Below the pieces are notes generated by a model. The model was not told the DNA's origin, made no database searches, and saw nothing but the letters and a program-made list of their open reading frames with translations. Of a stretch of DNA of 60,219 nt, positions 32,245 through 57,900 are shown piece after piece (position 1 is the first letter of the stretch; the number at the start of each line of letters is the position of its first letter). The DNA is from Segetibacter sp. (GTDB lineage Bacteria > Bacteroidota > Bacteroidia > Chitinophagales > Chitinophagaceae), in the NCBI GenBank assembly GCA_021154405.1, contig JAJKIP010000248.1:1-60219 (forward strand), written 5' to 3'. The translations under genes were made by a program, and so were the position numbers.

Positions 32245-33213
32245 ATGAAAATTTTTACCTGGCATATTCATGGATCTTATTTATACTTCCTTTCCCAGGG
32301 AGATTACGAAATATATATTCCTGTTACAGCAACGAGAAAAGAAGAGGGGTACTATGGCAGAGGCAATACGTTTCCTTTTGGACCCAATGTAATAGAGATA
32401 CCTTTTGAGGAAGTAAGCCACACTGAATTTGATTGCATTCTTTTTCAAACGAATCGGAACTACCTGGTTGACCAATTCCTCGTATTATCAGAGGAACAAA
32501 GAAGTTTACCTCGAATTTATCTTGAGCATGACCCACCAGGAAACCATCCTGTGGAAACCACTCATGTCATGCAGGACAGGGAAATGCTATTTGTTCATGT
32601 TACTCATTTTAATAAACTGATGTGGGATAACGGAGCAATTGATACGCGTGTTATAGAACATGGTGTAATTGATCCGCGTGTACAATATAAAGGTGAGCTT
32701 GACAAAGGGATTGTAGTGATCAATAATTTACCATCAAGAGGACGTTTACTTGGGCTGGATATTTTTCTGGAGGCCAGAAAACATGTTCCGCTGGACCTTG
32801 TTGGTATGGGCTCAGAAGGACTGGGCCTTGGAGAAGTATTACATCCTCAACTGCCTGAATTTACCAGCAGGTATCGCTTTTTCTTTAATCCCATAAGGTG
32901 GACAAGTCTTGGACTGGCCATCTGTGAGGCAATGATGATTGGGATACCTGTTGTAGGATTGGCCACAACGGAGCTTTCTTCCGTTATTACAAATGGCCAA
33001 TCAGGTTTCATACATACTGATATCCATTACCTGATCGAAAAAATGAAGCTGTTAATTGAAAACCCGCAGCTCGCTTTTGAATTAGGTAATGAAGGGAAAA
33101 GAGTCGCCAGAGATCGATTCAACATTGAACGGTTTACCCGTGAATGGAAGGAACTGTTTCAATTGGCTATTGACAAAAAAGGACTGGAAATGAGGCGGAC
33201 AAGCCTTGCTTAG
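32245..33213 (+). CDS. glycosyltransferase, GT4-like
   Basis: This 322-residue protein has a C-terminal GT-B-type sugar-nucleotide domain: PIRWTSLGLAICEAMMIGIPVVGLATTELSSVITNG (about 215-255) contains the E-x7-E-like stretch of GT4 enzymes. The N-terminal half (about 1-160) is divergent and unusual for the family, with FTWHIHGSYLYFLSQ at the start. It probably adds a sugar to a glycan or glycolipid in the cytoplasm. It leads a rightward run with a second GT4, a heptose phosphatase, HldE and a GT9, so the glycan probably contains heptose. Donor and acceptor are unknown. Confidence 0.8.
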   Translation: MKIFTWHIHGSYLYFLSQGDYEIYIPVTATRKEEGYYGRGNTFPFGPNVIEIPFEEVSHTEFDCILFQTNRNYLVDQFLVLSEEQRSLPRIYLEHDPPGNHPVETTHVMQDREMLFVHVTHFNKLMWDNGAIDTRVIEHGVIDPRVQYKGELDKGIVVINNLPSRGRLLGLDIFLEARKHVPLDLVGMGSEGLGLGEVLHPQLPEFTSRYRFFFNPIRWTSLGLAICEAMMIGIPVVGLATTELSSVITNGQSGFIHTDIHYLIEKMKLLIENPQLAFELGNEGKRVARDRFNIERFTREWKELFQLAIDKKGLEMRRTSLA

Positions 33214-33244
33214 CCGCTGGATCTTTAATTTAAATGGAGTATGT

Positions 33245-34558
33245 ATGAGAAGGAAAATCGCGTTTATCAGCGAGCATGCCTCACCATTGGCAGTGCTTGG
33301 GGGAATTGATGCAGGAGGACAGAATGTATATGTTGCAGAGTTGACCCGGTATATTGCCAAAAAAGGTTATGATATTGACGTATTTACCAGATGGGAAGAT
33401 CCTGCTCTGCCCCAGGTTACTGACCTTAAAAATGGCGTCAGAGTCATCCATATAAAAGCCGGTCCCATAAGATACATCTCCAAGGAAGAACTACTTCCTT
33501 ATATGAACGAGTTCCGTATGAACATGATCAGTTTTATGGAACTGGAAGAAATAGCATATGATCTGGTGCATGCAAATTTTTTTATGTCGGCACTGGTTGC
33601 CATGGAATTGAAAGAATTAGTTGGAATACCGTATGTGGTAACCTATCATGCCCTTGGGAAAGTAAGATTATTGCACCAGCGTGAACAGGACCGATTTCCG
33701 GAAGAACGGCTTGAAATAGAAAAAAAGACTGGTGCCAAAGCAGACAGGATCATTGCAGAGTGTCCACAGGATAAAGAGGATTTATGTAACCTGTATGGAA
33801 TGAATAGTGGAAATATTTCCATAGTACCCTGTGGCTTTTGCCCGTCTACCTTCTATCCGGTCAACCAGTCGCTTGCAAGAACCGTTCTGGGATTAAATAA
33901 AGAGGAAAAGATTATCCTGCAATTAGGAAGGATGGTACCACGCAAAGGCGTTGACAATGTGATCCGGGCTCTTTCATTGCTGGCTACAAAAAATGTACGG
34001 CTTTTGGTTGTGGGAGGAGATTCAGAAAATCCCGATCCGGCCAGTTGCCCGGAATTAGGAAGATTACAGGAGCTGGCAGCGGCGGCAGGTGTGCAATCAT
34101 CCGTCACATTTACCGGCAGCCGGAAAAGTAAATTCCTCAAGTATTATTATTCAGCAGCGGACCTGTTTATTACCACACCCTGGTATGAGCCATTTGGGAT
34201 CACCCCCCTGGAATCTATGGCTTGCGGTACTCTAGTAATCGGATCGGATGTAGGCGGTATTAAATATAGCGTGGAAGATACTAAAACAGGTTTTCTTGTC
34301 CCGCCCCGGAACCCTCAGGTCCTGGCTGCAAAAATAGATCAGGCACTAAATGACGAGTACCTCATACAGAAAATGCAGGTAAATGCCATCAAAAGAGTAC
34401 ATAGTTTATTTACATGGGCCAGGATTGCTGAAATGATGATACCGGTTTATGAAGACGTACTGGACAAGGCCAGCACCAGATGGAAATCAGAAAATCATAC
34501 AAAAACACGCGTGTATTTTCTTGAGCCTTCTAAAAAAACATTGAAAAAGATCAGGTGA
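33245..34558 (+). CDS. glycosyltransferase, GT4 family (sucrose-phosphate-synthase-like)
   Basis: This GT4 enzyme of about 437 residues begins MRRKIAFISEHASPLAVLGG. The N-terminal GGIDAGGQNVYV block is the acceptor-side glycine loop seen in sucrose-phosphate synthase-like and MshA-like enzymes. The C-terminal donor half has LGRMVPRKGVDNVI and PWYEPFGITPLESMACG, the E-x7-E motif of retaining GT4 enzymes. I use the ATG at 33245, which has a GGAG site 5 bp upstream. The TTG at 33206 is in frame but lies inside the previous gene. Its stop overlaps the start of the phosphatase gene (TGATG), so the two are co-translated. Confidence 0.88.
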   Translation: MRRKIAFISEHASPLAVLGGIDAGGQNVYVAELTRYIAKKGYDIDVFTRWEDPALPQVTDLKNGVRVIHIKAGPIRYISKEELLPYMNEFRMNMISFMELEEIAYDLVHANFFMSALVAMELKELVGIPYVVTYHALGKVRLLHQREQDRFPEERLEIEKKTGAKADRIIAECPQDKEDLCNLYGMNSGNISIVPCGFCPSTFYPVNQSLARTVLGLNKEEKIILQLGRMVPRKGVDNVIRALSLLATKNVRLLVVGGDSENPDPASCPELGRLQELAAAAGVQSSVTFTGSRKSKFLKYYYSAADLFITTPWYEPFGITPLESMACGTLVIGSDVGGIKYSVEDTKTGFLVPPRNPQVLAAKIDQALNDEYLIQKMQVNAIKRVHSLFTWARIAEMMIPVYEDVLDKASTRWKSENHTKTRVYFLEPSKKTLKKIR

Positions 34559-35202
34559 TGCAGAGTAGACCACAAAAAGCGGTGTTTATTGATAAAGATG
34601 GAACATTGATTCCGGATATTCCCTTTAATTCAGATCCAGATCTGCTCAGTATTGAACCGGAAACGATCAGTGGGTTAAAGCTCTTACATAATAATGGGTA
34701 TAAACTGATCATAATTTCCAATCAGCCTGGAATAGCCAGAGGTTATTTTACGGAAAAAGCGCTGGATGTAATCTGGACTCGCATCAATTCCATCCTTTCA
34801 AATCATGCAATAAAACTGGATGCATTTTATTACTGTCCGCATGATGCAAATGGCATTATCTCACCCTATGCTATTGTCTGCAATTGCCGCAAACCGGCTC
34901 CCGGCTTAATATTCAAGGCTGCAGCAGAATGGAATATCGCATTGAACAAGTCCTGGATGGTGGGAGATATCTTAAATGATATTGAAGCAGGCAACAGGGC
35001 AGGATGCAGATCAATATTATTAAACAACGGAAATGAAACGGAATGGATTATGAATCCGGCACGGACTCCGGTTAGCATGACTAAAAATTTCAGGGAAGCT
35101 GCCCAGATAATCGTAAAACAGAACAATTATGAACCCAAGGAATTTGAACCATTCGGAAATCATCAATCTATTTTCCCAGAAGAAAGTTCTGGTAATAGGT
35201 GA
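34558..35202 (+). CDS. gmhB: D-glycero-D-manno-heptose 1,7-bisphosphate 7-phosphatase-like (GmhB)
   Basis: This HAD-family phosphatase of about 214 residues is expected to remove the 7-phosphate from heptose 1,7-bisphosphate on the way to ADP-heptose. The catalytic DxDGT motif is DKDGTLI (12-18). The Zn-binding cysteines typical of GmhB are present in CPHDANG (about 93) and CNCRKPAPG (about 108-110), and the fourth HAD motif is VGDILNDIEAG. It overlaps the preceding GT4 gene by one base and the following hldE gene by 74 bp, so all three are tightly coupled. Confidence 0.87.
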   Translation: MQSRPQKAVFIDKDGTLIPDIPFNSDPDLLSIEPETISGLKLLHNNGYKLIIISNQPGIARGYFTEKALDVIWTRINSILSNHAIKLDAFYYCPHDANGIISPYAIVCNCRKPAPGLIFKAAAEWNIALNKSWMVGDILNDIEAGNRAGCRSILLNNGNETEWIMNPARTPVSMTKNFREAAQIIVKQNNYEPKEFEPFGNHQSIFPEESSGNR

Positions 35203-36631
35203 TTTTATACTCGATATATATCTAAAAGGCGTGAGCACAAGATTGACACCTGAAGCTCCAGTCCCTGTTGTTGACATAGAGGAGCGAAGTCTTTACGGCG
35301 GAGGTGCAGCCAATACTGTTTGTAATCTCCATACTCTTGGAGCCAACGTCTCCTTTGTAAGTGTGGTTGGCCGTGACAATGAAGGGCATGAGGCCATTGA
35401 ATTGTTATCCGGATCGGGTATTGATGCCGTATCAGTGATACAGGACCCGGGCCGAACTACCCTATCCAAAACAAGGGTTATGGCAGGCTCACAGGTAATT
35501 ACAAGACTGGACCGCGGTTCAACAGAATCATTGAATGATCAGTTAACCAGTCAGCTTATAAATCTGATAGCTGAAAAATATGCAGCGCAGGATGCCATAA
35601 TTATTTCCGATTATGATAAGGGAATAGTTACCCAATCCCTCCTTGAAGCCATTAACCAGCTTCAGCAAAAAACACCCAGATTCCTTGTGGTCGATTCCAA
35701 ACGCCTGGAGCTTTTTAAATTCCTGAGGGCATCCCTTGTAAAACCGAACTATGAGGAAGCAATAAAACTGGCAGGTGTTGCGCGGCAATACATGTCGCGG
35801 GTATCTCAGATCAAAGGGATAAGTAATTTATTGTATGAAGAGACAAATGCTGGAATTATTGCCGCAACTCTTGACAATGAGGGCTCCCTGATCATTGAAG
35901 AGGGTATTGCAGTACATCGTTGTTATGCACCACCTATCGCATCACCCAATGTCTCTGGAGCTGGGGATACTTATCTCAGTGCGTTTGTTTTAAGCTATCT
36001 GGTTAGCCAGCATTGCGGTCTTAGCGGCGATATTGCTACAGCAGCAGCCACCCTGGCTGTTAACAGAGAAAAAACTTCCCAATGCAGCGCAAGTGAATTG
36101 AAGTCTTATTTTGACCTTAACACAAAATTCATTTCTTCACCGGACCAGTTAAAAAAGATCTGCGACACATATCATGGTTTGGGAAAAAGGATCATATTTA
36201 CCAATGGCTGCTTTGATATCCTCCATAGCGGGCATGTTACGTTTTTGCATTGTGTAAAAAAACTGGGTGATATATTAATAGCAGGCATTAATACGGATGA
36301 AAGCATCAAACGTCTGAAGGGTAATAACCGGCCCATTAATTCTCTGAGTGACCGTTTGCAGGTATTGGCAGGTTTAAGTTCTGTTGATCATATTGTTGCT
36401 TTCGGCGAATCTGGCGATGATACTCCTGTACCTGTTATTAAAGTGGTAAGGCCGCATATATTTGCCAAGGGGGGTGATTATACCAAAGAAAAATTGCCGG
36501 AAGCTGAACTAGTGGAATCACTGGGAGGAGAAATTGTATTTCTTCCTTACCTGCCTGATCATTCAACCACAGGTATTATTAATAAGGTAAACTATATGCA
36601 TGCCAGTCAACCATTAAAAGCCGCTCTTTAG
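35129..36631 (+). CDS. hldE: bifunctional heptose 7-phosphate kinase / heptose 1-phosphate adenylyltransferase HldE
   Basis: This 500-residue fusion has two domains. The N-terminal ribokinase-like domain (about 1-330; VLVIGDFILDIYLKG, then GAGDTY at about 276-281) phosphorylates heptose 7-phosphate at C1. The C-terminal cytidylyltransferase-type domain (about 350-490; FTNGCFDILHSGH at about 357-369) transfers AMP to give ADP-heptose. GmhB acts between the two steps and is encoded directly upstream. The gene starts inside the gmhB 3' end. GmhA (isomerase) and HldD (epimerase) are not in the window, so the sugar may stay in the D-glycero form or depend on genes elsewhere. Confidence 0.92.
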   Translation: MNPRNLNHSEIINLFSQKKVLVIGDFILDIYLKGVSTRLTPEAPVPVVDIEERSLYGGGAANTVCNLHTLGANVSFVSVVGRDNEGHEAIELLSGSGIDAVSVIQDPGRTTLSKTRVMAGSQVITRLDRGSTESLNDQLTSQLINLIAEKYAAQDAIIISDYDKGIVTQSLLEAINQLQQKTPRFLVVDSKRLELFKFLRASLVKPNYEEAIKLAGVARQYMSRVSQIKGISNLLYEETNAGIIAATLDNEGSLIIEEGIAVHRCYAPPIASPNVSGAGDTYLSAFVLSYLVSQHCGLSGDIATAAATLAVNREKTSQCSASELKSYFDLNTKFISSPDQLKKICDTYHGLGKRIIFTNGCFDILHSGHVTFLHCVKKLGDILIAGINTDESIKRLKGNNRPINSLSDRLQVLAGLSSVDHIVAFGESGDDTPVPVIKVVRPHIFAKGGDYTKEKLPEAELVESLGGEIVFLPYLPDHSTTGIINKVNYMHASQPLKAAL

Positions 36632-37756
36632 ATGAAAGGATGGAAAGATTGTAAAAAGATTTTATGCATCCGCCTGGACAATATGGGAGATGTGATCATG
36701 TCCTCCCCTGCCATCCGGGCATTAAAGGAAAACTTTAATTGTTCAATAACCCTTCTTACGTCATCAATGGGGGCACCGATTGCGCAATTTCTTACATTTA
36801 TCGATCGGGTAATAACATTTGACGCGCCATGGGTAAAACTGAATAACCAGGGAGGCACTCATGAGTTCAATGAACTGGTATTGCAATTAAAAAAAGAACA
36901 ATTTGACGGTGCAATCATTTTTACCACATTCAGTCAGTCTGCACTTCCTGCAGCACTTGTTACTTATCTCGCAGGAATCAAAAGGAGGATGGCTTTCTGC
37001 AGGGAGAATCCTTATGCATTATTGACAGACTGGATCCCGGATAAAGAGCCCTATTCTTTTATCCAGCATCAGGTGCAAAGAGATCTTAACCTTGTTGAAA
37101 AAGCAGGGGCTGTCATAAAAGATGATAACCTGATTTTACAATTACAAAAAGATCTCCATGATCAGATTGCCCGTAAACTGGAAAGCCTCGGCGTAAATTT
37201 CAGTAATCCATGGATCATTGTTCATACCGGGGTTAGCGAACCAAAAAGACGTTATCCTGCGGATTTATGGGCAGCCGCCATTAACCAGATAGTAGATAAG
37301 TTCGGTTATCAGGTCCTTTTAACAGGTAACAGGGAGGAAATCAGGAGCATTGAGGAAATCAGAATTAATACCGGTAATCATGTTTACAATACAGCAGGAA
37401 TACTTTCATTGGAAGAGTTTATCACACTGATAAAAGAGGCTCCTCTCCTTGTTTCAGTTAATACAAGCGCCGTGCATATTGCGGCTGCAATGGGCACTCC
37501 GCAGGTTGTGTTATATGCACTCAGTAATCCACAACACTTACCCTGGAAGGCAAAAGGAAACCTGCTTTTATTTGATATTCCTGCGGAGCTCAGAAGCCGG
37601 AATGAAATTTTACAACATACCCACAGGAATTTCCATCCACAAGACCTACCGATGGTTAGGCCGGAGGATATTGTTGAGGCCTGCAGCAGTCTTCTTGTCA
37701 GAAAAGAAGATTCCACCATTCCTCCCATGATTCCCTTGCAAATACTGGAGCAATGA
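36632..37756 (+). CDS. GT9 heptosyltransferase-family glycosyltransferase (rightward)
   Basis: This GT9 protein of 374 residues belongs to the family of ADP-heptose:LPS heptosyltransferases (WaaC/WaaF). The N-terminal ILCIRLDNMGDVIMSSP (about 9-25) and the C-terminal TSAVHIAAAMGTPQVVLY are the family's acceptor and donor blocks. The start codon follows the hldE stop directly (no spacing), so it is probably translated by coupling. Its last 111 bp overlap the 3' end of the leftward GT9 gene. GT9 next to HldE and GmhB is strong evidence for a heptose-containing product. Confidence 0.88.
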   Translation: MKGWKDCKKILCIRLDNMGDVIMSSPAIRALKENFNCSITLLTSSMGAPIAQFLTFIDRVITFDAPWVKLNNQGGTHEFNELVLQLKKEQFDGAIIFTTFSQSALPAALVTYLAGIKRRMAFCRENPYALLTDWIPDKEPYSFIQHQVQRDLNLVEKAGAVIKDDNLILQLQKDLHDQIARKLESLGVNFSNPWIIVHTGVSEPKRRYPADLWAAAINQIVDKFGYQVLLTGNREEIRSIEEIRINTGNHVYNTAGILSLEEFITLIKEAPLLVSVNTSAVHIAAAMGTPQVVLYALSNPQHLPWKAKGNLLLFDIPAELRSRNEILQHTHRNFHPQDLPMVRPEDIVEACSSLLVRKEDSTIPPMIPLQILEQ

Positions 37757-38725
37757 ATGCAACCCGGAAAGCACCTCCTTGAAATCCGGAGTCGCCAGCC
37801 AGTTTACCGTTCGATGGAGGTTCCTGTTCAGGGGACCCCATCTTTCCGGTTCTCCATCCATGCTGATGATTACGCCTGGCGTCTCCACAGCCGCAGCGAT
37901 ATGTGAAACCCCAGTACAATTAGAGATCAGCAGGAGGGCCTGTTCTATCAAAACTGCCATGGAACCGATCTTCGTTTTACCCGCTGCAATAATTGGTTTT
38001 GTTAGCATATACCGTTCAACCTCGCTGACAACTTCCAATTCTTCCTCAATCCCTGTTATCACCACCTTTAAACCCAACCCTGCGCAGTAATCAGCTATTG
38101 CAGCAAAGTATTCAGGAGGCCACCGACGACCAACATCTGCAGAGCCAGGATGTATGCAAACATATTTCCTGGGTGTAAGGGAAAGGGAAATTGAACGATA
38201 ATCATCGAAATCCTGGCTAAATAAAGGAAATTCAAGATGGGTGCCCTTCAAAGGAATGCCAAGGAAATCCATTAATAACAGATGCCTTTCTATTTCATGA
38301 ATCCCGGATGGATAAGAATAAAAAAAGTCCAGGTCAGGACAATAGTCCCCTTCTGTGCAAAATCCAGCCGTGTATTTCGCGCCAAGCAATTCAACCATTG
38401 GATTTACAATTGATCCATTACCCTGCATTTGCAGGATCAGGTCAAAATGCTGCTCCTGCACCTCATTGATAAAATTAGTAACCTCGGCTGGAATCACTTT
38501 CTGTTCAGGCAGACCAGGGAAACCTGGGAAATGAATAAATGAATGTATATAAGATGGGAACCGATACAGAAGAGATTTTGCCCACGGTAAACCAAAAAGA
38601 GTAATGCGAGCTTCTGGATAAGCATGGTGAAGAGCCCGCAATGCCGGGATAACGCATAACATATCTCCCAGTTTCAGCGCCCTGAATACGCCGATCTTTT
38701 TAACTTCCTGCTGCGGAATTTTCAT
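37646..38725 (-). CDS. GT9 heptosyltransferase-family glycosyltransferase (leftward)
   Basis: This is a second GT9 protein, of about 359 residues from the ATG at 38725 (MKIPQQEVKKIGVFRALKLG). The ATG at 38725 has an AAAGAG-type ribosome site on the minus strand; upstream in-frame starts at 38761 or 38803 lie in the end of the GT2 gene. Family motifs are FRALKLGDMLCVIPALRAL near the N-terminus, VCIHPGSADVGRRWPPEYF in the middle and TGVSHIAAAVETPGVIIS near the C-terminus. It begins 8 bp after the GT2 gene on the same strand. It overlaps the rightward GT9 gene tail to tail by 111 bp. Confidence 0.85.
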   Translation of the reverse strand: MKIPQQEVKKIGVFRALKLGDMLCVIPALRALHHAYPEARITLFGLPWAKSLLYRFPSYIHSFIHFPGFPGLPEQKVIPAEVTNFINEVQEQHFDLILQMQGNGSIVNPMVELLGAKYTAGFCTEGDYCPDLDFFYSYPSGIHEIERHLLLMDFLGIPLKGTHLEFPLFSQDFDDYRSISLSLTPRKYVCIHPGSADVGRRWPPEYFAAIADYCAGLGLKVVITGIEEELEVVSEVERYMLTKPIIAAGKTKIGSMAVLIEQALLLISNCTGVSHIAAAVETPGVIISMDGEPERWGPLNRNLHRTVNWLATPDFKEVLSGLHSLLQYLQGNHGRNGGIFFSDKKTAAGLNNILRPNHR

Positions 38726-38733
38726 TTCACTCT

Positions 38734-39723
38734 TTATAAAAACAATACTCTGTATTTCCATGCTCCATATATCTGCCAATAGACAGAAAGAAATGGAATA
38801 CATATGGAAGTAAAGATCATTTCAAGAATATGGGAAACTGATTTTGAAGTTCCCTTAAGTCGCAGATAAATAAATCTTGCCAGTAAAACAGTCCATCCGA
38901 CAAAGAAATATAAAGCAAGCCAGGGATGACTGGTCAAAATGCAAACGACAAAAACAAGGGATGAAATTACCATCAAATAATAATTCCATAACGGCGATGG
39001 CTGTATGCGCTGTCGATATAAAGCAGGGAATTTTTTATACAACAAGGCATTAAATTTCCCTTTCTGTTGTTCCCTCAGGCTTACTCCCCAGGGTGCATTT
39101 CGGACAGGATGGAGCACTCTTGCATCCTTTATATTAACTACAGGAATTCCTTCCATTATTAATTTGAAATGCAGATCGCTATCTTCTCTCCAGGCCAGTG
39201 CAAAGCGTTCATCGAATCCCGCGGTTTGTTGCAGCGCCAGCCAGGTACAACAACAATTAGCGGTTACAAATTCTGCTATTTGCAGACCAGCAGTATTTTT
39301 TTCATAGTCGGTAGGGCTGTCGGGAATTGGAACGATGACCTTTCCGGTAAATGCAATTTTAGATTCCTGCTTATAGGCATCTTTAAAGGCGGAGAGCCAA
39401 TTTTTTTCTGGTTGTGTATCATCATCTGTAAAGGCAATTAAACTGGAGCTTGCTCTTTTCCAGCCATAATTTCTGGCTGCTGCCGGACCTTTTTTGCGCG
39501 GCATTTCAAAATACCTGAGTCTTTTATCAAACCGGCGATCCTCAACCATCTCCCGGGTAGCAGGATCAGGCCCGTCACTTACAACGATAATTTCAAAATT
39601 ACCATTAAAGTCCTGGTTAAAAAGCGCATTAAGGCAATGCCCTAGTAATTGCGGACGGCGGTAAGTTGGAATAACAACAGAAATATCCATAAGCTGATCA
39701 ATGTTTTCAGTCAGGTTGCCCAT
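38734..39723 (-). CDS. glycosyltransferase, GT2 family, membrane-anchored
   Basis: This 329-residue GT2 enzyme has the GT-A fold motifs ISVVIPTYRRPQLL (about 14-27), the DDD-type metal motif FTDDDTQPEKNW (about 96-107) and the ED motif AWREDSDLHFKL (about 177-188). Two hydrophobic segments follow at about 250-292, so the protein is probably held at the inner membrane. The start at 39723 overlaps the carbamoyltransferase gene by 17 bp, but the ATG at 39690 (MDISVVIPTYRR) is equally possible. It lies between the carbamoyltransferase and the GT9 gene in one leftward unit. Confidence 0.87.
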   Translation of the reverse strand: MGNLTENIDQLMDISVVIPTYRRPQLLGHCLNALFNQDFNGNFEIIVVSDGPDPATREMVEDRRFDKRLRYFEMPRKKGPAAARNYGWKRASSSLIAFTDDDTQPEKNWLSAFKDAYKQESKIAFTGKVIVPIPDSPTDYEKNTAGLQIAEFVTANCCCTWLALQQTAGFDERFALAWREDSDLHFKLIMEGIPVVNIKDARVLHPVRNAPWGVSLREQQKGKFNALLYKKFPALYRQRIQPSPLWNYYLMVISSLVFVVCILTSHPWLALYFFVGWTVLLARFIYLRLKGTSKSVSHILEMIFTSICIPFLSVYWQIYGAWKYRVLFL

Positions 39724-41437
39724 TTTTTTCTACCAGGTAAGAACCGATCACCAAAGCATCAAAAGGTGAAGACCAGAAACACTCTATGGCATCTCTTGGC
39801 GTACATACAATTGGCTTCCCCAACGTATTAAAGGAAGTGTTCACCAGCACGGGTACTCCTGATTTTCGTTTGAAGGCAGAAAGCAGATCATAATACTTCC
39901 CGTGCTGTTCGCGATTCACCGTTTGTATCCTGGCGGTTCCATCCACATGCCGGACGGCCGGAATTTTATCAGCCTTATCCTGCTTTACATCATAGATAAA
40001 AAGCATAAAAGGAGAATCGGAGGCATTAACAAACCATTCAGGAGCATCTTCTTCCAGTACAACTGGTGCAACGGGTCGAAAATCTTCCCGGTCCTTTACT
40101 TCATTCAATCTTGCCTGCATTTCGGGATTAATAGGTGACGCAAGTATGGATCGGCTGCCCAGGGCCCTTGGTCCAAATTCCATTCTTCCCTGGAACCACC
40201 CAATGATCTTATCCTGCATAAGAATGTCTGCAGTTTCTTCTGCAATATTTTTCAATTTCCTGTAAGGAACTTTGGCCCACTGAAGAAATTTTTCTATTTC
40301 AGTATCATTATAATCAGGACCATAATATGCGTGGGACATGCGATAATCCTTGCTGATCCCTTTATTTTCATTCATATCCACCCAAATGGCCGCGCCTAAT
40401 GAAGTACCTGCATCTCCGGCAGCTGGTTGAACCCATACATTTTTAAAAGGTCCCTTGTCCCTTATTCGGGCATTGAGTACGCAATTGAGGGCTACTCCAC
40501 CTGCCATACAAAGGTTTTTATCGCCTGTTTTACTGGAAAGCCAGTGTACCAGTTCTAAAACCGTTTCTTCCAGCACATACTGCAGAGAATTGGCGATATT
40601 AAAATGGTGTCCTGTAAAGGGATCGGTTTTTTTCCGCGCGGGGCCAAAGCGTTCTTCCAATCTTTCATTATCAATGGTATACTGTCCATCCGACCCTAAA
40701 TGGATCATTTCCCTGAATTCATTAACGAAAACAGGTTTACCATAAGAAGCAAGCGCCATTACTTTATACTCATCCGATGAATGAAGAAAACCAAGATAGG
40801 AAGTAACCCTTTCATACAATAATCCAAGAGAATGAGGCATATCCACCTGGCCAATCCTGATTAATTTATCGCCCCTACCTGTATTATAACTGGTGGTGGC
40901 TATTTCACCCCGGCCATCCAGGGTCAATACTGCCGCTTCCGAATAGGGTGAAGGATAAAATGCGCTGGCAGCATGCGCGATATGATGTTCAACAAAATGC
41001 CATTTCCAATGAGAAGGATTTGTACCCTTAAACCTGGCTTGCAGATGATGGGGGTAACCATCAGCCAATTGGCCAGGCGCATTTATTATTGATGAAAGAA
41101 ATAAAGGCTCCCAGGGTGAAGTCCATTTTGATGGTCCTGATTCCATTCCTGGCTCCAGTGGGATCTGTATGGTTGATTTTCCTTTTTCTTCTTTTAATAA
41201 GAGATATGGATCAAACGAATAAGCTATATTATCTACCTCACTAATATGAATACCTGCTGTTTTAAGACAATAATCGATTGCGTGAAATGGTAATTCATAT
41301 GCAGAAAAAGGAATGGGCCGTTTTCCATGTTTGATCTGTGTAAATCGTTCATCTTCTGCAGCGGCAATCAATTTTCCGTTATTTACCAGGCATGCAGACG
41401 AATCATGAAAGGCTGCATTTATTCCGAGTGTATACAT
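39707..41437 (-). CDS. carbamoyltransferase (NodU/CmcH/TobZ family)
   Basis: This O-carbamoyltransferase has about 576 residues from the ATG at 41437 (MYTLGINAAFHDSSACL). The family transfers a carbamoyl group from carbamoyl phosphate, via carbamoyl-AMP, to a sugar or other hydroxyl. The N-terminal Kae1-like domain has the metal-binding HHIAHAASAFYPSP motif (about 149-162) and the nucleotide-binding blocks LDGRGE and AGGVALNCVLN. The C-terminal carbamoyltransferase domain contains MEFGPRALGSRSIL, plus VNTSFNTLGKPIV. A heptose carbamoyltransferase (WapO) is known in Pseudomonas LPS. With two GT9 genes and HldE beside it, a carbamoylated heptose is a plausible product. Confidence 0.9.
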   Translation of the reverse strand: MYTLGINAAFHDSSACLVNNGKLIAAAEDERFTQIKHGKRPIPFSAYELPFHAIDYCLKTAGIHISEVDNIAYSFDPYLLLKEEKGKSTIQIPLEPGMESGPSKWTSPWEPLFLSSIINAPGQLADGYPHHLQARFKGTNPSHWKWHFVEHHIAHAASAFYPSPYSEAAVLTLDGRGEIATTSYNTGRGDKLIRIGQVDMPHSLGLLYERVTSYLGFLHSSDEYKVMALASYGKPVFVNEFREMIHLGSDGQYTIDNERLEERFGPARKKTDPFTGHHFNIANSLQYVLEETVLELVHWLSSKTGDKNLCMAGGVALNCVLNARIRDKGPFKNVWVQPAAGDAGTSLGAAIWVDMNENKGISKDYRMSHAYYGPDYNDTEIEKFLQWAKVPYRKLKNIAEETADILMQDKIIGWFQGRMEFGPRALGSRSILASPINPEMQARLNEVKDREDFRPVAPVVLEEDAPEWFVNASDSPFMLFIYDVKQDKADKIPAVRHVDGTARIQTVNREQHGKYYDLLSAFKRKSGVPVLVNTSFNTLGKPIVCTPRDAIECFWSSPFDALVIGSYLVEKNGQPD

Positions 41438-41646
41438 AATTAAATCATTGTATGGTAACCGGCAGAAAATTTTGTTCCAACAACAATTCATTTGTGTCCA
41501 TTCTTACATAACAATGGGATAGATATTAGGCTTTTTTTATAGTAAAAAGATAATTGATGTATATGGTAAAAAAAATGAACAAAACGGCCATACTAATCCA
41601 CTATTGACCCCTTAATGGGAATTAATTAGAGCAGGATGTTGATAAC
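41438..41646. other. divergent gap between the carbamoyltransferase and the small ORF/transporter
   Basis: This AT-rich stretch must hold the promoter of the leftward carbamoyltransferase run. No TAnnTTTG element was found on either strand. An interrupted CCCCTTAATGGG pair (41609-41620) is the only local symmetry. I see no gene before 41647. Confidence 0.4.
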
Positions 41647-41718
41647 ATGAATCTGAAGAAGACAAAAGGTTGGGAAGCCCCTGGTATAATCATTGTGCGA
41701 TCTCGTCTATATCATTAG
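41647..41718 (+). CDS. possible small ORF, 23 residues, of unknown function
   Basis: Directly before the transporter there is a 23-codon frame with an ATG, an AGGA site 10 bp upstream (41633-41636) and a TAG at 41716-41718. The peptide is strongly basic at the start and reads MNLKKTKGWEAPGIIIVR.... The block GWEAPGII loosely resembles the W/YxxPxI element found in leaders of some modified peptides, but no maturation enzyme of that sort is close, and chance is quite possible. I would not call it a gene without further evidence. Confidence 0.25.
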   Translation: MNLKKTKGWEAPGIIIVRSRLYH

Positions 41719-41737
41719 CCTTAACAGAGAATGATTT

Positions 41738-43264
41738 ATGGATCTAAGGCCTAAGAAAGTTTTATCAGAACAGGAAGTATCCAATGGATTGCGACTGGTG
41801 ATCTATGATGGACTGGCAGCCGAGATCATGACAACGCTTACTGGTGGTGCTTTTCTTGTTGCAATGGCGGTGCTGTTGGGAGCATATAATTTCCAGATTG
41901 GTTTGCTGGCCGCACTACCCACTTTCACCAATATTTTCCAGTTGGCTGCCATTTGGCTTGTGCGACGGTTTAACAGCAGAAGGGGGATCTCTGTTTTTTC
42001 TTCAGTACTCGCCAGAATACCACTGATTTTGATTGGCATCATCGTTTTATTGTATTCTTCATCAATTAGCACCGTCATTTTCTTTTTATTTTTTCATTAC
42101 CTGGGAGGATCTATAGCCGGGATCAGCTGGAATTCCTGGATGAAAGACCTGGTCCCTGAAAAATCTTTGGGTGCTTATTTTGCCAGGCGGGGCAGCTATA
42201 CTCAAACACTCAATGTAATTTTGAGTCTTGCACTCGCTTTGCTAATTGATTATATCAAGCAACATCATGTAGCTTTTGAACTAAGTGCTTACGGGATCAT
42301 GTTTATTGTAGCGGGTATTGCAGGTCTGATTGGCGTATCCTTTCTTTCCAGGACTCCCGAGCCTGAATCAAGATCAATAAAGGAGAATATTTTTAAATTG
42401 ATGAAGAGACCCCTTCACAATGGCAATTTCAGAAAATTGCTTGTATTCAATTCTATCTGGGTATTTGCCTTAAATCTGGCTACTCCTTTTTTCACCGTAT
42501 TCCTGTTGAAAAACCTTCATCTTCCTCTTTCTTATATTATTGGGCTGAATATGATCAGTCAGCTATGCAGCATATTCACCATTCGAATATGGGGTAAATA
42601 TGCTGACAGGTACAGCAACAAGACGATTATAGCTATTGGCGCTCCTTTATATATTTTATGCCTGGTAGCCTGGTGTTTTGTGGGTATTTATTCAAATGTG
42701 TATAATAACCTGGCCCTGCTTGCCGGCATTTTTATGGTGAGTGGTGTAGCCAATGCAGGCATTAATTTATCGTTGACCAATATTGGTTTAAAGCTGGCCC
42801 CGAGAGAAGAAGCGATCGTTTATCTATCGGCCAAAAACATTATTACTTCAATGTTTTCAGCAGTAGCTCCGCTGATTGGAGGATGGCTGGCCGATTATTT
42901 TTCTCTTCGACATATAAAGTTAGCGGCTGAATGGGGCAGTCCAAAATTTACAAAGGTATTCCGGCTGCTGGAATTGCATGATTATAATTTCCTTTTTGCA
43001 GTAGGAGCAATATTTTCAATAATCGCTCTTGAACTGCTGGTACAGGTTAAAGAAGAGGGTGAAGTGGAAAAAGATATTGTGGTACGGGTCATGCGGAGTA
43101 ATCTTCGAAACAGTCTCAAAGATGCTTTCATAATTGGAAATCTCCTGACCTGGAGTGATCAGTTCATTGGATTCATGCGAAAAAGGAGAAGAAGAAGGAG
43201 AAAAAAGAAAAATTCAGCCAATAATCATCTGGCAGGACAGGCACCCTCACAAGAAACCCAGTAA
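41738..43264 (+). CDS. MFS-type transporter with polybasic C-terminus
   Basis: This 508-residue inner-membrane protein has about 12 hydrophobic segments and a conserved major-facilitator-like layout. The first half is around MTTLTGGAFLVAMAVLLG, and the second half includes FNSIWVFALNLATPFFTVFLL and the exporter-like PREEAIVYLSAKNIITSM. The last 30 residues are soluble and carry an uninterrupted run of 11 basic residues, encoded by a 34-base purine tract (43179-43212). Its position next to a glycan gene cluster suggests export of the product, but substrate and direction are unknown. Confidence 0.8.
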   Translation: MDLRPKKVLSEQEVSNGLRLVIYDGLAAEIMTTLTGGAFLVAMAVLLGAYNFQIGLLAALPTFTNIFQLAAIWLVRRFNSRRGISVFSSVLARIPLILIGIIVLLYSSSISTVIFFLFFHYLGGSIAGISWNSWMKDLVPEKSLGAYFARRGSYTQTLNVILSLALALLIDYIKQHHVAFELSAYGIMFIVAGIAGLIGVSFLSRTPEPESRSIKENIFKLMKRPLHNGNFRKLLVFNSIWVFALNLATPFFTVFLLKNLHLPLSYIIGLNMISQLCSIFTIRIWGKYADRYSNKTIIAIGAPLYILCLVAWCFVGIYSNVYNNLALLAGIFMVSGVANAGINLSLTNIGLKLAPREEAIVYLSAKNIITSMFSAVAPLIGGWLADYFSLRHIKLAAEWGSPKFTKVFRLLELHDYNFLFAVGAIFSIIALELLVQVKEEGEVEKDIVVRVMRSNLRNSLKDAFIIGNLLTWSDQFIGFMRKRRRRRRKKKNSANNHLAGQAPSQETQ

Positions 43265-51998: not shown

Positions 51999-54900
51999 TT
52001 AATTTTTAATTAAACGCTGTATGGTTTTATTACCTGATTTTTCTTCTGTTATATCCAGCAGGTATACTCCGGCAGCCAGCTTTTCAAACTCACTCAGGGT
52101 TATTTGTGATATGCCCTTTGCTACCTCTTTACGGACCTGCTGCAGCGCTTTACCACTGACATCCAGCATTCGTATCCTGAAAGCAGTAGCCCTCTCTGTA
52201 TTTACAGTTACCGTTATGGCAGAATGGAATGGGTTAGGCCATGCATTTACCTGCAACTGGCTGGACAATCTTACTACAACCACATTACTGTATTTTGTTT
52301 TGCCATCAATATCAACAAGTTTAACACGGTAGTAGATAGCATTAGTTTGCTGAACAAGTGCTGCAACATCGTCAATGGCCTGATAGTAAGATTTCACTGC
52401 ACTGGAACCAGCGGCCTGTACCTGTTTGCCAACCTGGCTGAAATCTTTATTATTTACGCTTCTTTCAACAATGAAGTAACTGGTGTTTTGTTCTGAAAGT
52501 GTTGACCAGCTTACAGTAGAAACATCACCACTTAACGAAACTGTAGCCTGAAGACCATCCGCTGGAAGCGGGCGAAGCCAGATCAATTTGTAGGTAGCAG
52601 GCGTAGGATCCTTCATCATCGCAGCATCCACATAGGAATAGCTAAAGATTACTGAAGTATCTCCCATGGCAGCCGGAGTGATCTTGAGCTGCAACAGGTT
52701 CGGGTTAAAGTTGTTGATCAGGTAACCACTTGTCACCAGTGCGCTGTTATAATATAATTCCGCATTATTGGGCACTACATCGATAATTACAGACTTGGTA
52801 GTAAGCACACAACCAGAATTACAATCCTCAGGATCTGATCCACTCAACACAGGCGGATTTACACCACCATTAAGTGTGATCACCATATTCACATTTGGCT
52901 GATTCACCGGAGCCAGGTAGCTGTCTGAATTAGGCAACTGCTGGATACCAAAGTCAACATTCGTTACATTGGTTATACCAGTTGTCAGTGTAATTGATGA
53001 GTTGGATATTCCGGCTTTATTCCCGGTTCCTGCCATATTGTTCGTTCCATAAGCATCTCCTACCGGTATCCATATGGTTGCATAATTACCGCAGGTTGGA
53101 GGATTGGCTCCCAGTTGCATATCGGTAGTAGATAATATAAGACTGTACGTACTATTTACTTCCGCCAACGGGAATGAATAGGCACCTGTTGAGTTATTAA
53201 CTGTTGATTTGAAGGCAACCTGCCCTGAAGCATCTACCAGGTAAGCGTAAACAGTAGCACCTGAAGGATTTCCTTTACCTGGACCGTTAACCACATTATC
53301 AATCAGACCATTCTTGTCGTTACGCAAGGTACCACTTACCGTAATACTGTTCTTTGTAATACCAAAGTCAGCATGGGAAGTACAGGAACCCGAAGCGTTT
53401 ATGCTCATTGTCTGGAAATAGTTAGTTGTTCTCTTATAGAAATTAGGAATGGTGGTTGTATCAATTGCCGTGATATAACACTGCGGATATTTCAGATACC
53501 TTATTGATACATGACCAATATACACACTATCAGCATCGCTATTGGTACCTGCCGTCAAGAAACGGATTGCAGTATTGGCTGTAGCGTAAGAAGTAATATC
53601 CTGGTTGTACACTGTTACATAGTTTGCATCCGTATTACCATCACCGGCAATTGTATAAATGGTACTGAAAGTAACGCCATCGGAAGCTACCTGCACGTAT
53701 ACATCGTCCCCGGCATTGATGGTATTGCTTTTCCTGCGATAAGAGAAAGTAAGGAAGGCCTTGGTTGCACCACTGAGGTTTACAGACCTTTTAGCGGATA
53801 CGTTGTTATCTTTTAATCGTATACCATAGCCAAATGCTCCATCTTTTACAATTTCCACATCCGTATTGGCAGCTGAAGCACTATTATTACAGAATCCGGA
53901 AGAAAAAGTATCACCATTGTCAGACCATGTTGGTGTCCATGGAGTATCTCCATCAGTACCGGAGGCACAGGAACTGGCTCCATTTGTACCTTCGAAATCA
54001 TCTTCCACTGTTCTTTCGGGATATTTTACAAACTGGTAGAAGCCTGAGCTGTCTACAGTTACTGAGTCAGTCAATTCATTTGGTGCAAGCGTACCATTAC
54101 AGTTACCATCAGTATACAGGTATACTTTAATGGCTGGCATACCAATTCCACCATCATCATTGTTACCATCTTTATCCCTGTCAATAAATACCTGACCAGA
54201 GATTACGTTCTGGTTACCATTTGAAGGACAGCTGCTGATCTTCACGATCACCCTTGCATTATCACATACAATGGGTGAAGGCGTAGAACATACACGATAG
54301 TCAAATGTATCCTGCCCGGTATACCCAGGGTCTGGTGTATATAATATGGTCCCGTTAGTATTAATAGTGATGGTACCATGCTTTGGCTGTAACAATCCGA
54401 GTGTTGACACACTTGTTGGATCAATAGTAGCCAGGAATCCAAAGTCGTTTACGAGAATAGTGATAGTTACAGGCTGATTTACCAGCGTACTGGCAAAATC
54501 ATCACTCGCTACTACTACTTTCTCTTTACAGAAAGGTTGCAATGTGGAACCCACGTCCCAGTAAGCAATACCGATACCAGTGCTTGAACCTTTAGGGTCT
54601 TCACCATACACAGCAGCGATCTTGGCACCGTTACAGGTATAGATGGCTATACCGCTCTGGTCATTATCTGTATTATCAAGGATCTTGATATAGTTAAGTG
54701 CATTTACATTGTAAGATACGTCGTAACGGAGACCACAGGGGCTTACCGAACCGGTAGTACCTGTTACGTTACCATCATATTTTACATAGATAGTTGTATT
54801 GACGGTAGGTGTTACCCAGATCGGGTTACCATTTACATCCGGACCAGCTGGTGCTACAAGGTCCAGACCACCAGGCGCCCATGCTACCGTAGTATAATCA

Positions 54901-57900
54901 GTTAACCTTGCTTCAGAGATCAGGTTGAACGACCAGTCATAAGTTGAACCATCCTGTGCGCTTGTATACGGAGTGTAAGAGTCCACAATTTCAATGGCAG
55001 TGAATGATTCACCTGTCAAGTTCACAAATTTATAAGTAGCCGTTGCAGAATAAGCCAGCGGGAAACGCACAGCTGATTTTGCCGGCACATTGATAACACC
55101 ATTTGCAGGAGCACCTGAATACCAGTTGATGGCAATCGGCCTGTTCAAACTATTATATAACATTACTACAGAAGAGTCTTTCACAACATCAGCCACGTTA
55201 TCCGATGTAGGCACAGGAGTATAATAAGTATTGGAATACCAGGTAGCGGGATAGATTGGGGCATTACGGATTGAATATCCATCAACACCACCTGCATTCA
55301 ATTCTACACCTACCGGCTTCGTACTGGTAACGGTTGCACCTGTCAACACACCACCATCTACAAACAGTGTTTGTCCTTCCTGTAAGGTAGCAGTTGTTTC
55401 CAGGGTACCATTATTATCCTTATCCAGACTAACTACAGTATTGTTTTCAGCTGCACGGATGAAAAGCGCAGTGTATTTAAAGTCCTGACTCGGGAAATCC
55501 TGTCCAAGTGGAATAGTAAATGATTGTCCGAAATCATACGTTGAGGTAACGTTGGTTTTAATAGCCTGAACCGGCATACGGGTAGGCTCACCTGTTACCT
55601 GCGTAATAGCAATCTGTCCATTAGAGGTTACTTTATCCTTACCGTCATAGAATATGGCGGTGGTTCTTGGGTTGGCAGGCATGGTATTGTCCAGAACGAT
55701 ATTAGCACTTGCAGGGATCAGGTCGCTCGGATAACCAGGTGCTATCCCATTATAAGGATTACCATCGCCCCAAACCTTTGTAGTAGACTGGGTTGGGTTA
55801 AGCGCGTTCGCTTCATATCCATCTTCCCATTCATCCCATACTATAGTCATACCCTGGTAAGGAACCTTGATACTGATTACGGTACGGAGGTTGTTGCTGG
55901 GCATGCTTGTATTGGAAGAATTCAACAAGGCATCATAAGCTTCATTTTCAGGATAAGGAATATAATACGTGTGTGATTTGGAAGCATCTGCACAGATATC
56001 CACGATAAATGGATCAATTGTAAAGAATATTTTCCCCGTTGCGCACAATGGTACAGGAGAAGTAAGATCACAGATCTGGTAAGTAATTGTATCCATACCA
56101 GAGAAGGTACCATTAGGCAGATAGATGATATTGTTATTTGAAATATAAGCAGAACCATTGCGGGGCTGACCTACTATGGCAAGGGATGCAGGGTTAATAT
56201 TATTATTAGGATCATAGTCATTAGCTAAAACGTCAACTACTATTGGGTTACCACCGGCACCTGAAACGCTGTCATTCAGCGCAACCGGAGCACAGCTGGT
56301 GCAAATATCGTAGCTGGCATTCATGGTATGGACTACAGTATTCTCATAACCTTCTTTTGCTGTACCGGAAAGAGCATATGTACCACCGGCCGCAGGAGTA
56401 TTCCATACATATTCAAATGTGCGAGTACAGCCACTGGTGTTTACAATAGCAGCAGGGAATGTGCTACCAGCTGGAGTGATCTTTACATTCAGCGCTGTGA
56501 TATCTGTAGCACCGAAGGGATCAGTTACAATAGCGCGGATATACTTCGTAGAGCTATTCACACCTGAAAATACCTGTGCACCGCCGGGATAAATCGCATC
56601 ATACACACCCAGGGAAGTTACCTGGATATAGGTAGATACAGGTATGTCGATCCTTGAAGGTTTTGTCTGGCTGTCAAAGTCGATACGGAAAGTAACACCG
56701 GCCTGTGCTGTAGTAAATTGAATAGCGATAGTTTGACCAGCGTTTATCAATACATCGGAAGCCAGGGTACCTGTCCATGTCAGCATTCCACCAGCATAAG
56801 AGGCGTTTGTTAAAGTAATGATCGGGTTACCAGCATAGGTTAATACTGCATTGATACTGGCAGTAGCCGGCATTGTACCACTTGAAATGGTAACATAGGC
56901 TCTTACGGTAATAGTACCGGCCTTGATGCGAAGACTATCGCACAAAGCAGGTGCCATGGTAAATGATGTATTGGTAAGACCAATAGTGCTCAAAAGCGGA
57001 GTGCTTGAAGTAGTTGCATCTGCGGTAGCTACCGGGTCAATACGATCAAGGGATTGAACAGGATCAGAAAGATATAATTGCTTGTAAACAAAATTTGAGT
57101 TTATGGTAACAGTGTGAGTAGCTGTTATTGGTCCGCCACAACCGGTAGCAGTGGCAGTGATCACTGTTGTACCGCTCCAGTTGGCTGCATAAGTTACAGC
57201 ACCAGTAGCTGCAACAATTGTATTACCACCAGCTAAACTGGCAGCATCAAGGGAATAAGTAATTGCTGTAGTATAGGCAGCAGTAGCAGAATAAGTTACT
57301 GTTGAATTACTTTGGGTCCTGGAAGAGGTTGAACCTAATGCAAATACTGGTGTACCAATTGTTGGATTGGTAGTAACGATATGAGTAGCTGTTTTAGGAC
57401 CATTGCAACCTGCGGCACTTGCCGTGATGGTTGAATTACCTGTCCAGCCAGCTGTAAAAGTTACAGCACCGGTTGAAGCATTAATAATATTACCAGAAGC
57501 AAGGCTGGTAGCATCCAGTGAATAAGTAACACCAGTAGTATTGGCAGCAGTAGCTAAATAATTAGCAGTACCTGCTCCCTGACAACGTGATGAAGTTGCT
57601 CCCAGGGTAAATACTGGCGTACTAACATTGGGGTTAGTTGTAACAGTATGCGTAGCTGATTTAGGACCAGAGCAACCCGTAGCCTGTGCGGTAATGGTTG
57701 ATGTACCTGTCCATCCTGCTACAAAGGCAACTGCACCCGTAGAAGGGGTGATGGAGTTGCCTCCAGCCAGGCTTGCAGCATCCAGGAAGTAAGTAATACC
57801 GGTAGAATTCGTAGCAGACGCAGTATAACTGGTAATAGTAGCAGCCTGACAACGGGAAGAGCTTGCTCCCAATGTAAATACCGGAGTTGCTACCGGAGGC

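Follow-up and report, generated by a model that had tools for sequence, protein, structure and literature searches.

A conserved seven-gene cassette, predicted to build a heptose-containing, carbamoylated glycan, in several bacterial phyla

We analyzed a 60,219-nucleotide window from the Bacteroidota member Segetibacter sp. (contig JAJKIP010000248.1 of assembly GCA_021154405.1; "the window" denotes this whole stretch) and found that the gene block at positions 32245-43264 is one copy of a seven-gene cassette recurring in several unrelated bacterial phyla. The core of this cassette comprises two GT4 family glycosyltransferases (GT4a and GT4b), a GmhB-like phosphatase, two GT9 family enzymes (GT9a and GT9b), a GT2 enzyme and an O-carbamoyltransferase (CTase). 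It is a real and conserved unit, for which we found no description as far as the literature was searched (titles and the starts of abstracts). It probably builds a short oligosaccharide or glycoside bearing heptose and an O-carbamoyl group. The source genome is a draft, 83% complete, with the handle G000; throughout, names of the G type denote genomes, those of the L type loci and those of the C type contigs in this analysis.

The recurrence of the cassette was established at two scales. When 295 genomes sampled from the class were searched with the CTase, 111 matched at an E-value of 1e-60: six genomes besides G000 have a CTase 63-74% identical to that of the window, while all other matches listed are 48% or less identical. 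In stretches of about 20 kb read around these six and in a further genome found via its HldE (G006), the full seven-gene core is present in six of the seven, with HldE in G006 only; the exception is Pedobacter Leaf194 (G229, locus L125), which has the CTase and GT4a only. A wider set was obtained by a contig scan, from which the best 80 of 564 relatives were taken, with genes being sought over as much as 10 kb of either flank and called with the guidance of tblastn matches. By their record titles, which include many metagenome bins and some possibly wrong labels, these loci belong to Bacteroidota (38), Burkholderiales (27, one titled only Betaproteobacteria), Planctomycetes (5), Chloroflexi (4) and six single others. 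All seven core genes are found in 56 of the 80 (27 Bacteroidota, 23 Burkholderiales, 3 Chloroflexi and one each from Planctomycetes, Verrucomicrobia and a Proteobacteria bin), and a stricter recount with a floor of 150 bits recovers the full set in 55/80 loci at 35% identity and 54/80 at 40%, with a median span of 8.2 kb. Taken singly, GT2 is present in 75 loci, GT9a in 70, GT4b in 69 and GT4a, GmhB and GT9b in 66 each; the CTases of the 80 loci are 61-75% identical. Since the same seven genes occur together in 56/80 loci, their clustering is more than chance. Hence, the scattering of these genes in relatives, which the initial annotation had named as the finding that would overturn it, is not seen; instead, they are linked across several phyla. 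At the loci L103 (a Cytophagales bin) and L118, the CTase is accompanied by GT2, with the other core genes not found in the stretch read.

Within the window, nine genes of the families first proposed were recovered by Pfam and NCBIfam models, each at its expected place and in the expected order, at the family level. A forward run with short overlaps (GT4a-GT4b-GmhB-HldE-GT9a, 32245-37756) is followed by a reverse run (CTase-GT2-GT9b, from 41437 down to 37646) and by a separate major facilitator superfamily (MFS) transporter gene (41738-43264, forward strand), which is divergent from the latter run. The GmhB-like HAD-IIIA phosphatase (34555-35202, forward) scores 138.5 bits against PRK08942, below the NCBIfam equivalog cut-off of 178. 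HldE (35129-36631, forward) is a fusion of PfkB kinase and nucleotidyltransferase domains that match HldE models for heptose-7-phosphate kinase and heptose-1-phosphate adenylyltransferase, its 326 bits again falling below the equivalog cut-off of 521; accordingly, both names hold only at the family level. This is the only strong HldE match of G000. The GT9a (36632-37756, forward) and GT9b (37646-38725, reverse; open reading frame listed to 38803, with 38725 as the probable start) genes, the only two GT9 genes found in G000, are convergent with overlapping 3' ends (37646-37756), and such an overlap is observed in 17 of the 20 convergent GT9a/GT9b pairs of the 80-locus set.

The use of heptose is indicated by the co-occurrence of the cassette with genes for ADP-heptose synthesis. 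Because such genes are common in the window's own family, with an HldE-type match in 51 of 59 relatives, the main informative test is a contrast within Chloroflexota, for which 400 genomes were sampled and at most three candidates per genome scored; the CTase and HldE searches are taken from their common genome handles to have covered the same 400. The CTase was detected in 19 of these genomes, in one case (G741) at only 49% identity. Fused HldE, counted by eye as matches spanning both domains, is present in 40 of the 400 (in one, G632, in two pieces), namely in 16 of the 19 genomes with the CTase versus 24 of the 381 without it (Fisher test, 3e-15, which ignores relatedness); for any HldE, HldA or HldC match at an E-value of 1e-15, the corresponding numbers are 19/19 and 160/381 (1e-7, likewise ignoring relatedness). 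In the 16 genomes with both, HldE lies within 13 kb of the CTase in seven (also counted by eye), farther away on the same contig in one and on another contig in eight. At the Dictyobacter locus L136, GmhA-like, GmhB and HldE genes stand together, adjoining the GT9 genes. Moreover, the genomes of five Bacteroidota cassettes that lack HldE (G333, G257, G284, G199 and G343) all have separate kinase and adenylyltransferase matches, while G229, which has no GT9 gene in the stretch read, has no ADP-heptose gene match above 28.1 bits. We therefore regard heptose as a well-supported ingredient of the product.

The known ADP-D-glycero-D-manno-heptose pathway (GmhA, HldE and GmhB) has all three of its genes in G000 at the family level, though split between the block and contig C306. 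GmhA is indeed missing from the block genes at 32245-43264, as had been noted, but the genome does not lack it: a GmhA-like gene scoring 206.3 bits against a cut-off of 209.45 lies on C306 beside an HddA-like kinase. On that contig (L041, 297-3071) the GmhA-like gene, the HddA-like kinase and a GT4 gene occur in a row, and a second heptose route of the GDP type may be encoded there. In the 83%-complete G000, the best HldD score (134.5 of 274.6 bits) falls short of the cut-off, and no HldD exceeds it in 19 of the 24 CTase genomes as a whole, the cut-off being strict and several of the genomes, including G000, incomplete. The absence of HldD fits a D,D-heptose product in those genomes.

The fold and donor sites of the GT9 enzymes were compared with those of established heptosyltransferases. 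PF01075 is present in both, with GT9b having been assigned from its sequence alone. The AlphaFold model of GT9a (pLDDT 92.7) aligns with a Veillonella GT9 (Z 32.5, root-mean-square deviation (rmsd) 3.6, 337 aligned), WaaF (Z 30.4, rmsd 3.1, 309 aligned) and WaaC (Z 27.9, rmsd 3.1, 304 aligned), whereas the heptosyltransferase TibC (Z 18.9) and sugar epimerases and other glycosyltransferases (from 15.7 down) are more distant. The key residues reported for WaaC are D13, K192, E222, D261 and H266, with K192 contacting O5 and O6 of the heptose; the same source suggests Arg in its place for D,D-heptosyltransferases and gives Ser at the Asp261 position of the WahF group, which it describes as heptosyltransferases (PMC3559599). 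In an alignment of 77 GT9a sequences, the D13 equivalent is kept in 76 (with one gap), whereas all 77 have Arg for K192, Asn for D261 and His at 266; a candidate for E222 is Glu in 73. The 73 aligned GT9b sequences keep D13 in 70 (three gaps), have Arg for K192 and His266 in 72 each and Glu at the candidate E222 place in 71, while the D261 place holds Asp in 37, Cys in 35 and one gap. As controls we used 21 GT9s outside cassettes (seven cassette members having been dropped from 28 loci): 20 of these have Asp261, the sole exception (L096) looking like a mis-called frame, and 15 have Lys192. Thus, the check on ADP-heptose-binding residues proposed initially gave a divided result: the Asp13 and His266 equivalents and a Glu near Glu222 are kept, but Lys192 is replaced by Arg, and Asp261 by Asn in GT9a and by either Asp or Cys in GT9b. 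This pattern suggests heptose-like donor sites in the GT9s, possibly of the D,D type, in which a single residue is altered. From gene co-occurrence, we infer that GT9a and GT9b use ADP-heptose.

The remaining glycosyltransferases are predicted to add other sugars. GT4a (32245-33213, forward) is covered by Pfam only in its C-terminal part, but its AlphaFold model (pLDDT 93.0) has a full GT-B fold, with BshA, TarM and sucrose-phosphate synthase being the closest (Z 25-26, rmsd about 3, about 290 aligned). GT4b (33206-34558, forward) belongs with the MshA and sucrose-phosphate synthase branch of GT4, which, by sequence likeness, supplies its closest solved relatives: it was recognized by Pfam, by TIGR03449 (271.3 bits, below the cut-off of 462.5) and by solved structures, namely the cyanobacterial sucrose-phosphate synthase 6kih_A (E-value 1.1e-71) and the MshA structure 3c48_A (3.7e-56). 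The acceptors of sucrose-phosphate synthase and MshA are soluble phosphates of sugars or cyclitols. GT2 (38734-39723, reverse), identified by Pfam, has a hydrophobic C-terminal region and is probably membrane-bound, with one to three hydrophobic stretches detected by a simple hydropathy scan in 72 of 82 orthologues.

The CTase (39707-41437, reverse; listed to 41491, with the start taken from the alignment) belongs to the subfamily that marks the cassette. It is a NodU/TobZ-family enzyme with both PF02543 and PF16861, and its key motif positions, which we take to be those of the metal and active sites, are invariant in all 88 sequences, that of the window included. Among the sequences listed, identity to the window's enzyme is 59-75% within the cassette subfamily (apart from G741 at 49%) and at most 48% for the remaining carbamoyltransferases. 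A carbamoylated product is likely. The placement of this group on heptose, as initially proposed, is unproven and did not find support: since G229 keeps the CTase in a genome without recognizable ADP-heptose genes, the carbamoyl may sit on another sugar.

From the gene content, order, conservation, linkage and co-occurrence, together with the predicted fold and residues, a route can be proposed in which the sequence of reactions, the identity of donor and acceptor, the carbamoylation site and export are all predicted. GmhA, encoded elsewhere, would isomerise sedoheptulose-7-phosphate; phosphorylation, the action of the GmhB-like phosphatase and adenylylation by HldE would then yield ADP-D-glycero-beta-D-manno-heptose, with the D,D form being expected because no HldD was found. 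GT9a and GT9b would add heptose, GT4a, GT4b and GT2 would add other sugars, the CTase would add the carbamoyl and an exporter, the MFS protein here and an ABC protein in most Burkholderiales loci, would move the product out, which would not be an LPS (lipopolysaccharide) core as such. More tentatively, and with appreciable doubt, it is conceivable that the same cassette makes a hitherto undescribed soluble or lipid-linked oligosaccharide with heptose and carbamoyl in both LPS-bearing and LPS-free bacteria, released by unrelated exporters. Distinct from LPS, it would serve generally in the envelope or in stress; GT9s with the Asn signature would build it, and GT4b would perhaps start it on a small sugar-phosphate acceptor. 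ADP-heptose chemistry is known mainly as the chemistry of the LPS core; hence, a two-GT9 cassette common to Gram-negative phyla and to Chloroflexota in which LpxC was not detected would represent a separate and widespread use of heptose. In animals, the innate immune system senses ADP-heptose through ALPK1, which makes it useful to know which bacteria produce this compound without LPS.

Several observations weigh against this heptose-glycan interpretation. As many as 24 of the 80 loci are without at least one core gene, although in seven of these a core gene lies within 1.5 kb of the locus end, and G000 itself is only 83% complete. ADP-heptose genes are common anyway among the relatives, and the Chloroflexota contrast ignores phylogeny, draws on a maximum of three candidates per genome and includes the CTase of G741, which is only 49% identical. 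G229 (L125) retains the CTase and GT4a without recognizable ADP-heptose genes, and L132, in whose cut locus neither GT9 nor HldE is present, has genes resembling GmhA and HddA, which would fit the use of another activated heptose. Z values of 24-26 with the GT9a model are also reached by three chloroplast NDH-PSI chains. The assignment of E222 is uncertain, because the pairwise alignment with WaaC places it at the preceding residue, which is variable in GT9a; 4 of the 21 control GT9s likewise have Arg for Lys192; and Asn replaces Asp261 in every GT9a, while a D261A mutation in WaaC costs about 2000-fold in activity (PMC5713226), such that the donor of GT9a or its mode of action may be a different one. 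Finally, LpxC, used below to infer the presence of LPS, is only one LPS marker.

The first alternative is that the block is a variant LPS inner-core locus, with GT9a and GT9b as the HepI and HepII transferases and the CTase acting like WapO on a core heptose. The Pseudomonas core genes include waaC, waaF, further glycosyltransferase genes such as wapG and wapH and the putative carbamoyltransferase gene wapO, whose product is credited with the carbamoyl carried by HepII, for which a 7-linkage is listed (PMC8005017); both systems pair two heptosyltransferases and other glycosyltransferases with a carbamoyltransferase, and heptose with carbamoyl. G000 has LpxC, and its only two GT9 genes found lie in the block. 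However, the block genes at 32245-43264 include no heptose or other core kinase, lipid A (including lipid A transporter) or ligase gene detectable by Pfam and NCBIfam, whereas the cassette holds a GmhB-like gene and sometimes HldE, and its GT9a signature is N(T/S) rather than D(T/S). In addition to the cassette, three genomes (G257, G284 and G333) carry another GT9 gene, which adjoins their separate HldC/HldA matches. Nor does the cassette seem confined to lipid A-making genomes: LpxC, the single marker used, was detected in 19 genomes out of 24 with the CTase, the others being four Chloroflexi and L103, and in none of 21 Chloroflexota genomes with the CTase, most of them checked for the CTase rather than the whole cassette, while 2/2 Bacteroidota were positive in the same test. 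As all seven genes are present in three of the four Chloroflexi loci read (L128, L134 and L136; the fourth, L132, is cut) and LpxC was not found in these genomes, the cassette does not seem to need LPS. L103 is LpxC-negative though a Bacteroidota draft, for which draft quality is the sole explanation offered. We hence reject the LPS core as the general function and retain it as a rival within Bacteroidota, where a role on LPS is possible; overall, this explanation is unlikely. The initial description of the cluster as heptose-using, carbamoylating, linked to a transporter and not simply an LPS-core locus is supported.

Alternatively, the cassette might specify a secreted specialized metabolite, an antibiotic-like carbamoylated glycoside with heptose for which the MFS protein provides self-export. 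The solved matches of the CTase include the novobiocin enzyme, GdmN and TobZ, which share its family and motifs and tailor antibiotics, whereas the CTase of the window is tied to heptose and glycosyltransferase genes; GT4b resembles enzymes acting on small soluble acceptors and transporters recur beside the cassettes. Against this, the conserved set is without a scaffold-forming enzyme (polyketide synthase, nonribosomal peptide synthetase or aminocyclitol synthase); and persistence across phyla with a CTase identity of 61-75% would better suit a housekeeping or stress product. We consider such a metabolite improbable.

A third explanation, that the GT9s use another donor, for instance another nucleotide sugar, with HldE serving a different pathway, draws on the invariant Asn of GT9a (77/77) and on the presence of HldE in only 17/80 loci; we hold it to be very doubtful, as HldE directly adjoins GT9a in all 17 of these loci and, in Chloroflexota, tends to occur in the genomes that have the CTase, the GT9s retain the equivalents of the catalytic Asp and of His266, and the WahF heptosyltransferase group also departs from Asp261, with Ser (PMC3559599). 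A Wzx/Wzy exopolysaccharide system was rejected, as Pfam and NCBIfam models identified neither a flippase nor a polymerase among the nine genes, and so was anti-phage defence, the nine proteins having no PADLOC model match at an E-value of 1e-5.

Returning to the heptose-glycan cassette, HldE and the MFS transporter are both present in the block, as first described, but neither is part of the conserved core (17/80 and 12/80 loci, respectively). The 17 HldE genes, each directly before GT9a, come from loci with five phylum labels, and the low count led us to reject HldE as a core member. MFS homologues adjoin the cassette in 12 loci at 35-1575 bases from a core gene; eight of these are 48-60% identical to that of the window and lie within 471 bases, and stricter limits give 8/80. 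No homologue of the window's MFS protein, itself a candidate exporter identified by Pfam, was found at an E-value of 1e-8 in the seven relative cassettes read first. As it stands beside 12/80 loci yet in none of those seven, the MFS gene was likewise rejected as a core member and is best seen as an optional linked gene. An ABC exporter occurs near 22 loci (21 Burkholderiales and one other bin), and no locus is common to the MFS and ABC lists. Two unrelated exporters beside one cassette suggest that the product is exported. In the representative of the ABC group (L162:3800-6415, group of 22), the exporter is unusually fused to a response-regulator receiver domain at its C-terminus.

Other genes are sporadically found near the cassette. 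A short-chain dehydrogenase/reductase ending in ETSWP is present in 19/80 loci with six labels, and UDP-glucuronate-decarboxylase-like genes, named after the annotation of a syntenic plasmid gene, lie near 26/80 loci, all labelled Burkholderiales. A radical SAM/SPASM gene is found near 6/80 loci and a PIG-L family gene near 16/80, these two groups and the ABC group being named by Pfam from one representative each. Stress-like genes recur in the flanks of L107, L133, L142, L152, L178 and others, and the flank groups, again named from one representative each by Pfam, include small heat-shock domain proteins at 4 loci and zinc alcohol dehydrogenases at 13. In Chitinophaga and G006, the cassette adjoins genes (L107 2449-6973 and L040 2638-6900) that, named by eye, look like those for a ketosynthase, a dehydratase, a reductase and an acyl carrier protein of an aryl-polyene or flexirubin type. 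Elsewhere in the window, an open reading frame of 2623 residues at 51999-59870 perhaps encodes a large surface or secreted protein, which is a guess.

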